A DNA stretch of 45,940 nucleotides from Chroococcidiopsidaceae cyanobacterium CP_BM_ER_R8_30. GTDB lineage: Bacteria > Cyanobacteriota > Cyanobacteriia > Cyanobacteriales > Chroococcidiopsidaceae. Positions 10,572-37,573 of the stretch are shown one piece after another. A program made the translations under genes and the position numbers. Every line of letters begins with the position of its first letter. Position 1 is the first letter of the stretch. The notes beneath the pieces are model-generated. The model was not told where the DNA came from. It saw nothing but the letters and a program-made list of their open reading frames with translations, and did not search any database. The stretch spans positions 1 to 45,940 of the forward strand of contig JAFASY010000291.1 in NCBI GenBank assembly GCA_019244235.1, written 5' to 3'.

Positions 10572-10643
10572 AGCGGGTAACGCGATTCGAACGCGCGACA
10601 TTCACCTTGGCAAGGTGACGCTCTACCACTGAGCTATACCCGC
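10572..10643 (-). tRNA. trnG-GCC: tRNA-Gly (GCC)
   Basis: A full cloverleaf is readable on the minus strand: acceptor stem GCGGGTA/TACCCGC, D arm with AGCTCAGTGGTAGAGC, anticodon loop CTTGCCAAG (anticodon GCC), T arm GTTCGAATC, and discriminator base T. CCA is not encoded (the next bases are TAG), so the 3' end must be added post-transcriptionally. Confidence 0.96.
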
Positions 10644-28497: not shown

Positions 28498-29763
28498 ATG
28501 ATCATACTAAGTTATGAATTCAAACTGAAACCCGCCCCCGAACAAATTCAAGCCTTTGACCAGTGGCTAGAGGTTTGTAGAAGGGTGTGGAATCATGCTT
28601 TAAGAGAGCGTAAGGATTGGTTTAATTCAAGGTCGTGTGAAATTAACGCTTGTAGTCTACATCACGAGTACATTATCCCGGCTTTTGCTCCCAGACCGAC
28701 TTATGCTCTTCAGTGTAAGTCTCTGACTGCTGCTAAAAAGGTATATCCAGACCTAAAGGTTCCTCATTCTCAAGTGCTGCAACAGACGCTAAAAATTCTG
28801 GAGACGGCATTTGTGTCAATGTGGGAGAGAGGTTTTGGATTTCCCAGGTTCAAGAAGCTAGGCAGAATGCGTTCGTTTGTCTTTCCGCAAATGGATAGTT
28901 CTTGTTTGGTTGATAGATATATTGCCCTCTCCAAGATTGGCAAGGTTGAAATGATACTGCATCGACCAATACCAGAGGGTTTTGATCTTAAGCAGGCTAG
29001 GATTGTCAAACGGGCATCCGGTTATTATGTGATGCTGAGTTTGCAGTGTGATGTAAATGTACCTACTACAATGCCACATGGGGAACCAATAGGTATTGAT
29101 GTAGGGTTAAACGCTTTTGTCGCGACTTCTGAGGGAGAACTTGTCACTAGACCTAGATTCTATGTTGAACGACTGCGTGAGCTGAAATTGCTACAAAGAA
29201 GGTTAAAACAAAAGAAGAAGGGTGGCAAGAATTGGTACAAGCTCAACTGTAGAATAGCATTGCTGCACGAACATATTTCTAATATTCGTAAGGACTGGCA
29301 CTTCAAGATAGCTCATCATCTTTGCAACTCTTCAGGGATGATATTTGCGGAAGACCTGAATTTAAAAGGGTTAGCTAGAGGAATGCTATCAAAGCATATT
29401 CTAGATGCTGGGTGGGGACAATTCCTCAACATTCTGAGTTGGGTGTGTTGGAAGAGAGATGTATACTTTGCCAAGGTTAACTGCAACGGCACTTCTCAAA
29501 CCTGCCCTAGATGTGGTGCCAACACTCCTAAAAATCTGAGTATGAGAGTGCATTTATGTCCTGAATGTCAGTATCAAACTAATAGAGATGTAGCAGCAGC
29601 TCAAGTTGTTAAAAAGCGAGGAATTTTATCAATAAGTACCGAGGGACAATCGGGAAATCAACAAAATGTCTGTGGAGGGGATATTGGCTTGGGCAACCCT
29701 TTGAAGCAGAAAAGCCTAATAGCGATGTTAGGAAGCCCGCGCTATATTGCTCTTAGCAATTAG
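28498..29763 (+). CDS. tnpB: TnpB RNA-guided nuclease of IS200/IS605 family
   Basis: A 421-residue TnpB. The RuvC-like catalytic residues are intact: D201 (IGIDVGL), E285 (FAEDLNLKGL) and D364 (TNRDVAAA). The zinc ribbon has CPRC (336-339) and CPEC (354-357). The N-terminal HTH-like part reads SYEFKLKPAPEQIQAFDQWLEVCRRVWNHAL. TnpB is an omega-RNA-guided DNA nuclease that keeps the transposon in place. No tnpA (Y1 transposase) is adjacent, so this is an IS1341-type, TnpB-only element that would move only with TnpA supplied in trans. It looks intact, not decayed. Confidence 0.93.
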   Translation: MIILSYEFKLKPAPEQIQAFDQWLEVCRRVWNHALRERKDWFNSRSCEINACSLHHEYIIPAFAPRPTYALQCKSLTAAKKVYPDLKVPHSQVLQQTLKILETAFVSMWERGFGFPRFKKLGRMRSFVFPQMDSSCLVDRYIALSKIGKVEMILHRPIPEGFDLKQARIVKRASGYYVMLSLQCDVNVPTTMPHGEPIGIDVGLNAFVATSEGELVTRPRFYVERLRELKLLQRRLKQKKKGGKNWYKLNCRIALLHEHISNIRKDWHFKIAHHLCNSSGMIFAEDLNLKGLARGMLSKHILDAGWGQFLNILSWVCWKRDVYFAKVNCNGTSQTCPRCGANTPKNLSMRVHLCPECQYQTNRDVAAAQVVKKRGILSISTEGQSGNQQNVCGGDIGLGNPLKQKSLIAMLGSPRYIALSN

Positions 29764-35524: not shown

Positions 35525-36376
35525 GTGGCAATTGAAGAACACAAGCTTAAAGTCGGGACACTGGAATGGTTTTATAGGGTAGCTGAGCCAATTGGCAGAA
35601 CTGATCGGTTGCCGATTTTGTTGCTACATGGGTTGCCTGCCCATAGCTATAGTTGGAGTGAAGTTATGCCAACCTTAGCTCTCCAAGGGTTTAGAGCGAT
35701 CGCTCCGGACTGGATTGGTTTTGGCTCCTCGGCAAAGCCAGACCTCCGAGATTTTGCTTATACGCCTGATGCTTTTATCACAGCTTTAGCAGAATTTATT
35801 CAAGCCTTAGAGCTAGAGAGATTTTCCCTGGTTGTTCAAGGATTCTTAGGTTCTGTCGGTCTTCAGTATGCCATGCGCTATCCTGAGCGAATTGAGCGTC
35901 TGATTATCTTAAATACTCCTGTATCAACTACCGCTAAGTTGCCTTGGCAGCTTCAGCAATTAGGTCTACCTCTTGTTGGCGATATGCTAACCCAAGACCC
36001 CCTCCTAGTTGACCGGACGCTAGAAAAGGGTAGTCGCTACTCAATATCAGATGCAGATCTAGCCATTTACCGTCAACCCTTCCTCAAAAGTTCTGCTGCT
36101 GGGCGATCGCTTTTGGCAACGGTACGAAATCTCCAAATGCAGCAGTCAATGACAGAAATTGCCTCTGGCTGGCGCAGCTGGACGAAGCCGACTGCAATTA
36201 TTTGGGGCATGAAAGATCCCTGGCTCCCCTACGAAATGGCGCAACAACTGACCGTTCCTATTCCACATGTAGACCTAATTCAACTAGAATCAGCAGGACA
36301 TTATGTTCAGGAGCATTGGTCTGAAAAGGTCAGCGATGCCATCCAATTCTTTCTTCGTCGCCAAGCCAGTCATTAA
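35525..36376 (+). CDS. alpha/beta-hydrolase-fold protein lacking the nucleophile
   Basis: A 283-residue protein of the haloalkane-dehalogenase/epoxide-hydrolase branch: ILLLHGLPAHSYSW (31-44), APDWIGFGSSAKPD (60-73), WGMKDPWLP with the acid, and ESAGHYVQEHW with the base His. At the nucleophile elbow it reads LVVQGFLGSVGLQYA, so the residue that should be Ser or Asp is Gly (G106). It may therefore be non-catalytic or use another residue. Start is GTG 35525. Its last 75 bases recur downstream of the FkbM gene (37499-37573). Confidence 0.8.
   Translation: MAIEEHKLKVGTLEWFYRVAEPIGRTDRLPILLLHGLPAHSYSWSEVMPTLALQGFRAIAPDWIGFGSSAKPDLRDFAYTPDAFITALAEFIQALELERFSLVVQGFLGSVGLQYAMRYPERIERLIILNTPVSTTAKLPWQLQQLGLPLVGDMLTQDPLLVDRTLEKGSRYSISDADLAIYRQPFLKSSAAGRSLLATVRNLQMQQSMTEIASGWRSWTKPTAIIWGMKDPWLPYEMAQQLTVPIPHVDLIQLESAGHYVQEHWSEKVSDAIQFFLRRQASH
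36302..36376 (+). repeat. 75-bp direct repeat, copy 1 (3' end of hydrolase gene)
   Basis: This is the last 25 codons of the hydrolase gene including its stop. It matches 37499-37573 at 1197 bases' distance with most differences being synonymous third-position changes. Confidence 0.7.
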
Positions 36377-36479
36377 TTTATTTTTCAGCTGGAGCGTTTT
36401 TAGTGTAAGTGCAACACGATAATCAGCTTCGGTTCGGATGGGACGGAGTTTGAGCGTATACGTTACCTCAAATTAAGGA

Positions 36480-37397
36480 CTAAGCAGTCTTAACTTGCAG
36501 GGCGGAAAGGATATCCTCATACTGCTCACCACGTTTAATTGCTATAAAATCGTGACCAGAAACCTGACCGTCTGTTTGACGGTTCAGTTCTTGTAGTCGC
36601 AAGCTACCAAATTTTGACTTCTTAATTGCGAATATAGTGTAGTTAATCGATGTAAGCAATTTTACAGGCTCTCGCTCCCAAAACGGTCCAGCATGTTCAG
36701 AAGACTCGAAAACAATTGCATCTGGCCCGTGATCCCGGAAGAAGTCTAACCCTCCACGTAGTACAAACTCTTCATGACCTTCGACATCTATCTTCATCAA
36801 GCGGACTCTCTTTAAATTGAGACTTGCGAGATAATCAGCGGTTCTTCGGACCTCAACCTGAATAGTCTTGTCTGCGCCACAAATCTGTCCCCATTGTTGT
36901 GAAAATGAAGCTGCACCACCATTATCTGAGGGAACGAACAGATCCAGCACGCCATCCTCCACTGACAACGCAATATTGTGTACCAGCACCTGGTTATACC
37001 CGTTTGCGTTGGCAGACTCTCGAATTAGCTCTGCCAATGCTGGTTGGGGTTCAAAAGCATGTACACGACCAGATGAACCGACTATTTTCGCAGCATACAT
37101 GGTAATAAGTCCACAATTAGCACCCACGTCAAGCATTGTGTCGCCGGATCGCAGAAGCCTCTTGCACACCAGAGTCACTTTTGGGTCGAGGTCACCAAAA
37201 TAGAAGACCGCACGACCAATGAAGTCATCAAGACGGACAAAAATAAACTGACCATCGCGAAGTCTAGCCTTCACAAGCGGCTTAGTACTGTAGGACATTC
37301 TTCTAAAGAGCGGTGTATTTGCTATCGTCCCGCAACCGCTGTAAAGCGGGTAAAGGTGACAAACACTCTGGAGTATTCCCCGAAGCATTGATCGCAT
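36480..37397 (-). CDS. FkbM-family SAM-dependent methyltransferase
   Basis: A 305-residue methyltransferase. The SAM-binding motif I is MLDVGANCGLITMYAAKIVG (near 95), motif II/III VHAFEPQPALAELI follows, and the FkbM signature MKIDVEGHEEFVLRGG lies near 200. FkbM enzymes O-methylate sugars, polyketides or similar small molecules. The gene is isolated between convergent neighbours and oriented opposite to the hydrolase. It is bracketed by two copies of the hydrolase 3' end, has no HIP1 site, and has no biosynthetic partner nearby, so it is probably an acquired gene. ATG 37397. Confidence 0.87.
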   Translation of the reverse strand: MRSMLRGILQSVCHLYPLYSGCGTIANTPLFRRMSYSTKPLVKARLRDGQFIFVRLDDFIGRAVFYFGDLDPKVTLVCKRLLRSGDTMLDVGANCGLITMYAAKIVGSSGRVHAFEPQPALAELIRESANANGYNQVLVHNIALSVEDGVLDLFVPSDNGGAASFSQQWGQICGADKTIQVEVRRTADYLASLNLKRVRLMKIDVEGHEEFVLRGGLDFFRDHGPDAIVFESSEHAGPFWEREPVKLLTSINYTIFAIKKSKFGSLRLQELNRQTDGQVSGHDFIAIKRGEQYEDILSALQVKTA

Positions 37398-37498
37398 TGA
37401 AACTCCTTTAGGTTCAAAATCTCTACAGAGGGCTACCGGAACAATGAACTAGCCCAAAAATCCTATCATGCATATGTTCTGCAATAGTAGGGAATCTA

Positions 37499-37573
37499 TA
37501 TGTTCAGGAACATTGGTCTGAAAAAGTTAGCGATGCCATCTAACTCTTCCTTCGTCGCCAAGCCAATAATTGA
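37499..37573 (+). pseudogene. 75-bp direct repeat, copy 2 (hydrolase 3' remnant)
   Basis: Same alignment frame as 36302-36376: about 64 of 75 bases match. Third-position changes dominate (GAG/GAA, AAG/AAA, GTC/GTT, TTT/TTC), but one codon has become a stop (CAA to TAA) and the final stop is TGA instead of TAA. The pattern looks like the tail of a homologous gene from a related genome that was under selection until recently, not a fresh duplicate. Confidence 0.65.

Follow-up and report, generated by a model that had tools for sequence, protein, structure and literature searches.

A duplicated hydrolase gene end on both sides of an FkbM-family methyltransferase gene in a Chroococcidiopsidaceae cyanobacterium

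Introduction

Partial gene duplicates that persist as pseudogene remnants beside the parent gene are a known kind of genomic feature. ICEs, IMEs and genomic islands are integrase-bearing elements that integrate at the 3' ends of genes, and a Campbell-type single crossover with a circle leaves a homologous stretch on both sides. In homology-facilitated illegitimate recombination, a region of homology serves to link foreign DNA to the chromosome (PMC3240628).

Here, a locus of the Chroococcidiopsidaceae cyanobacterium CP_BM_ER_R8_30 was analysed, in which the end of an alpha/beta hydrolase gene (hereafter H) is found on both sides of an FkbM-family methyltransferase gene (hereafter FkbM). The window, i.e., the whole stretch of DNA analysed, comprises 45,940 nt of contig JAFASY010000291.1, forward strand, from a 5.5 Mb draft genome in 328 contigs. 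Searches covered 60 genomes (its own and those of 59 relatives), among which it is the only one of its genus. Our reading, to which we assign a probability of roughly one half, is that the second gene end is a decayed relic left by recombination at the 3' end of H in this lineage, and that the DNA carrying FkbM entered there.

Results

The features of the locus are listed in Table 1. As stated in the preliminary description, the last 75 bases of H recur 1197 bases away: the two copies are in direct orientation, with a start-to-start spacing of 1197, and align without gaps with 66 of 75 bases identical (88%). The same description had placed a lone FkbM gene between the copies and considered the resident gene to be intact. 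Indeed, the ORF between the copies is a genuine member of the FkbM family, scoring above cut-off for both PF05050 (68.1 bits, cut-off 22.7) and TIGR01444 (101.2 bits, cut-off 37.7), and H is a whole ORF of 283 aa. Between the last codon of copy 2 and the end of the DUF4833 gene, which runs convergently, there are 9 bp. A histidine kinase gene lies on the same strand as the DUF4833 gene, 11 bp ahead of it.

Table 1. Position of the hydrolase gene, the two gene ends and the neighbouring genes in the window.
Feature	Position (nt)	Strand	Evidence
H, alpha/beta hydrolase, 283 aa, GTG start, intact	35525..36376	+	ORF; Pfam Abhydrolase_1 5.8e-26; orthologues of relatives at most 74% identical
Repeat copy 1, last 25 codons of H including the stop	36302..36376	+	Repeat alignment; genome search
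Interval between tails, 1122 bp (103 bp + FkbM gene + 101 bp)	36377..37498	.	
FkbM-family methyltransferase gene, 305 aa	36480..37397	-	Methyltransf_21 1.4e-18; TIGR01444 6.6e-29
Repeat copy 2, decayed hydrolase 3' end, nonsense codon 37541-37543	37499..37573	+	
DUF4833 gene, 194 aa	37583..38167	-	PF16117 2.7e-08

When the whole 5.5 Mb genome was searched, copy 2 was matched at E = 4.3e-21 and no third copy of the tail was retrieved, the 11 other listed places having E values from 1.0 to 6.7. No other non-self repeat was detected at E ≤ 1e-4 when the 45.9 kb window was compared with itself by BLAST with the low-complexity filter on. Outside the repeat, both flanks are at chance identity (4–7 of 15 bases per block), and no further hydrolase sequence was detected upstream of nt 37499. 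Such sharp boundaries on both sides are expected if a short shared segment was the crossover point. That the repeat results from chance similarity or from an assembly artefact is scarcely credible: the genome-wide E value refutes chance and, although the 328-contig assembly is a draft, the two copies are on a single 45.9 kb contig with nine differences between them, and hence are not one repeat doubled by the assembler.

The nine differing codons comprise four synonymous changes, one stop-to-stop change (TAA/TGA), three amino acid changes and one nonsense codon, with eight of the nine base changes being transitions. The nonsense codon of copy 2 (CAA to TAA, nt 37541–37543) is in frame; copy 2 is therefore a pseudogene fragment, starting abruptly mid-gene, and not a working gene end. 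That most differences are synonymous, as previously described, is overstated, such changes accounting for four of the nine (five with the stop-to-stop change), and the suggestion that the second copy derives from a diverged orthologue is not supported. In simulations of one-sided neutral decay, a mean of 1.3–2.1 codons of nine were synonymous, and at least five were so in 0.5–3.7% of simulations, depending on transition bias. As copy 1 belongs to a working gene, changes in copy 1 should be synonymous; with this constraint included, the probability, taken as binomial on the simulated synonymous share, was 0.06–0.22 for at least five of nine and 0.18–0.45 for at least four. The synonymous share is thus not above that predicted by an in-place duplication, and the pattern of differences does not call for an orthologue diverged under selection elsewhere.

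These figures also bear on the chief alternative, i.e., a tandem duplication of the whole of H in this lineage, followed by an insertion-deletion that brought in FkbM at the cost of the 5' nine tenths of the second copy. Replacement of most of a tandem second copy leads to the same end state, and the synonymous excess over one-sided decay (5/9, P 0.005–0.037) fits a second copy that was once functional, but if only copy 1 is under constraint, an equal share is likewise expected (P 0.06–0.22). Moreover, at least two events are required, and neither another hydrolase remnant upstream of nt 37499 nor a third tail in the genome was found.

To place the two tails, 109 orthologous tails were compared (loci L003–L111, with some genomes present twice and 103 distinct tails). 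Both copies share a valine codon in the motif YVQEHW, which occurs in none of the 109 orthologous tails (105 with P, 4 with A at this site). The two copies agree at 57 of 63 bases, while the best orthologue reaches 48/63 with copy 1 and 46/63 with copy 2, and of 1000 column bootstraps, 973 had copy 1 as the strictly nearest sequence to copy 2. Copy 2 is hence closest to the resident gene and is disabled, the two marks of a decayed partial duplicate. The sister relation of the copies is in line with the tandem duplication too, which we consider possible, yet clearly less probable than an entry of FkbM at the end of H.

As a yardstick of divergence, eleven pairs of orthologue tails were hand-picked. 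The copies share 54 of 60 bases, the ten same-genus pairs 53–59 of 60, and the one pair across two genera (G004 and G005) 52 of 60. Since the copies are nearest to each other and their divergence is in the same-genus range, the recombination event appears confined to the lineage of this genome but not recent, with a sister-species donor being possible. Of the recent intragenomic copy of copy 1, against which the preliminary description had weighed its proposal, the grouping with copy 1 was found and the recency was not.

A homologous recombination at the end of H in which a diverged strain supplied FkbM together with its own orthologous hydrolase tail is doubtful. The divergence of the copies would suit a sister-species tail, 54/60 lying within the same-genus range of 53–59/60, and FkbM has no close counterpart in the relatives; the donor, however, would most simply share the YV codon and, this being absent from 109/109 tails, should belong to this lineage. 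No donor joining tail and FkbM was found either, FkbM being near H in 0/109 loci. From these sequences, the import of an orthologous tail and a local duplication cannot be told apart.

The best-scoring match to FkbM in the 59 relatives shows 34% identity, with shorter and weaker ones reaching at most 39%. Among 385 other genomes of the phylum, a set that partly overlaps with the 59 relatives, seven had a match at E ≤ 1e-20, the best at 34%. A second FkbM-like gene of the same genome is 26% identical to the bracketed one. As for potential donors, no match was retrieved among phages, and plasmids gave 34 records, of which the 20 listed are 27–35.5% identical. The composition of FkbM is ordinary for the window and shows no sign of import (G+C 0.465, against 0.473 for the window). 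The claim that the FkbM gene entered is upheld in part: it has no close counterpart in the 59 relatives or the 385 phylum genomes and is bracketed by the tails, but none of the genomes searched showed an empty site. Against an insertion, the family is common, with matches at E ≤ 0.001 in 42 of the 60 genomes (its own included), and a rapid divergence of a resident paralogue is possible. The DUF4833 gene was found in one of the 59 relatives and, at E ≤ 1e-8, in three of the 385 other phylum genomes; both it and FkbM look like accessory genes. Being rare and low in G+C (0.374), the DUF4833 gene was perhaps itself acquired.

In agreement with the previous remark that no transposase is visible, no recombinase was found between the tails, where only FkbM and an overlapping opposite-strand ORF (nt 36868–37203, outside the Pfam scan) are listed. 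The Pfam scan of the window, covering 36 of 45 ORFs of at least 90 aa, returned a single transposase-type hit, an IS605-type OrfB. This lone TnpB-like gene (nt 28498–29763), about 6.6 kb away, is flanked by a DUF815 ATPase gene and the MetRS block, and no counterpart of it was found where the region around LptC was mapped in five family members. Eight inverted repeats of 10–14 nt occur in nt 36350–37520, none pairing the ends of the interval, and an insertion sequence or MITE was rejected on this basis. A tRNA attachment site was likewise rejected, the sole tRNA of the window being a tRNA-Gly at nt 10572–10643. Promoter-like sites (2 vs. 4.6 in shuffled sequence) and terminator-like sites (3 vs. 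2.4) were near or below the shuffled numbers.

No duplicate of the tail was present within 4 kb on either side of H in any of 109 H hits, only four matches of 12–15 nt being observed; these are the hits with at least 500 nt downstream, 6 of 115 having been excluded because their flanks were short, and some genomes contribute more than one hit. A hotspot of tail duplication at the end of H was rejected on this count, as was, given also that no recombinase was found in the interval, an integrase-type mobile element at the gene 3' end. The absence of a recombinase, of end-pairing inverted repeats and of any recurrence argues against a mobile element favouring the end of H, and the idea of gene-end exchange as an interesting insertion mode finds no backing in the 0/109 other H hits with a duplicated tail. 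The same count weighs against the tandem duplication. If close relatives carried other single genes at the end of H, transposase-free gene acquisition would be indicated; the examined loci give no such sign, and it is very unlikely that this end serves as a landing site at which the lineage swaps in single accessory genes, bearing no recombinase of their own, by short-homology recombination.

LptC, FkbM and DUF4833 were found near H in none of the 109 H loci at a 60-bit cut, in flanks of at most about 1.5 kb in 29 and up to 6 kb in 80 of them, often ended by contig ends. The order H–DUF4833, absent from all 109 other H loci, is a further point against the insertion model. In relatives, H is often associated with two genes that, from reading of their sequences, we take to be PsbQ and ThiO: both are downstream of H in 28 loci, both upstream in 29, and one was detected in 11 and neither in 41, a class that includes short flanks and weak matches. 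In the genome under study, PsbQ–ThiO lies on contig 1 without H, with a gene presumed to be MsrA following ThiO. Given that H is beside PsbQ–ThiO in many relatives and that this pair stands here on another contig without it, H most likely relocated to its present place after LptC in this lineage.

MetRS, NYN and LptC occur together in 5/5 family members mapped gene by gene (L259–L263), and MetRS and NYN are inside the fetched stretch around LptC in 28/28 relatives. In these five members (L259–L263), the stretches around LptC yielded no counterpart of any gene that comes after LptC in the window. A relocated H, together with the absence of LptC from the 109 H loci, points to a segment with a history of rearrangement. 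On the G005 chromosome, H is at 5.05 Mb, LptC at 5.31 Mb, the histidine kinase gene at 0.30 Mb and the ABC-2 gene at 4.12 Mb; these four genes being far apart in the relatives, no FkbM-free counterpart of the site was found there.

The position of H varies, i.e., before PsbQ–ThiO, after ThiO, after a histidine-kinase-like gene (six family members) or, here, after LptC. Several moves of H seem likely, and PsbQ and ThiO often stay paired (window 35525–36376; L252 9158–10824). The H of those six members, which belong to two genera (L010, L011, L012, L015, L016 and L018), groups separately from the remaining family sequences in the protein tree, sits 20–32 bp behind the histidine-kinase-like gene and may be a separate replacement. 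A cyanobacterial H was also retrieved from L050 (JACCVJ010000247.1), titled Tatlockia, a Legionellaceae name, and from L092 (JAAUUT010000072.1), titled Candidatus Gracilibacteria. The H protein of L050 is identical to that of family member G017, probably the same contig, and both records look like misnamed cyanobacterial bins.

The best matches of H outside the family have 74% and 73% identity, and those within it at most 70%. The H tree rejects a grouping with G004 and G005 (p-AU 0.0003), a test group that we picked from LptC identities; neither LptC (p 0.17) nor ABC-2 (p 0.13) rejects it, although it is absent from their free trees, which put this genome among family members without fixing its exact place. 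A concatenated tree of six proteins, three of them without two or three of the 28 relatives, places it outside the other 17 family members (100/99), in no settled order with respect to G052. In the H tree, its weakly supported position (79/86) is adjacent to, but not within, a clade of 11 family members plus G052 that is itself strongly supported; G052 is in this tree nested among family members, and G002, G003, G008, G009, G013 and G014 are found elsewhere. A xenologous H, considered on the grounds of the identities and of the H tree, is conceivable but was dropped, since vertical descent with relocation suffices, the position of H broadly though imperfectly fitting the six-protein tree.

Discussion

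A direct repeat of about 75 bp around an accessory gene is what a single crossover of a gene end with incoming homologous DNA leaves. According to the preferred reading, H would first have stood tail-to-tail against the DUF4833 gene. DNA bearing FkbM would then have entered at the 3' end of H through recombination over some 75 bp of hydrolase tail, the incoming tail being either copied from the local one or derived from a very close relative. The outcome would be a whole H beside FkbM, with a redundant second tail beyond FkbM that later gained the nonsense codon. The 9 bp that separate copy 2 from the convergent DUF4833 gene are a natural spacing for a tail-to-tail arrangement, and suggest that the place of copy 2 was once the end of H. 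The data show the repeat, the decay of copy 2, the close relation of the tails, and examined H loci with neither FkbM nor the present gene order; that the insertion was a single event, in which order the steps occurred and which copy is the older we infer.

Most likely, an old recombination left an ordinary, one-off scar here, in a chromosome region that has been rearranged, and no new kind of mobile element is involved. It offers at most a clear small example of a gene end marking an old rearrangement in a cyanobacterial chromosome.

As in partial duplications and pseudogene remnants, a short truncated copy with a nonsense codon lies near an intact parent; here, however, an unrelated gene, FkbM, separates the copy from the parent. 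The intact target gene and the second 3'-end copy at the far boundary are shared with ICEs, IMEs and genomic islands, whereas no recombinase was found between the repeats of this locus, its interval is only 1.1 kb, and its repeat is imperfect (88%) and non-recurrent. Finally, under its putative mechanism, the locus would share with homology-facilitated illegitimate recombination and Campbell integration the joining of foreign DNA through homology, and with the latter also the homologous stretch on both sides, in this case of FkbM.
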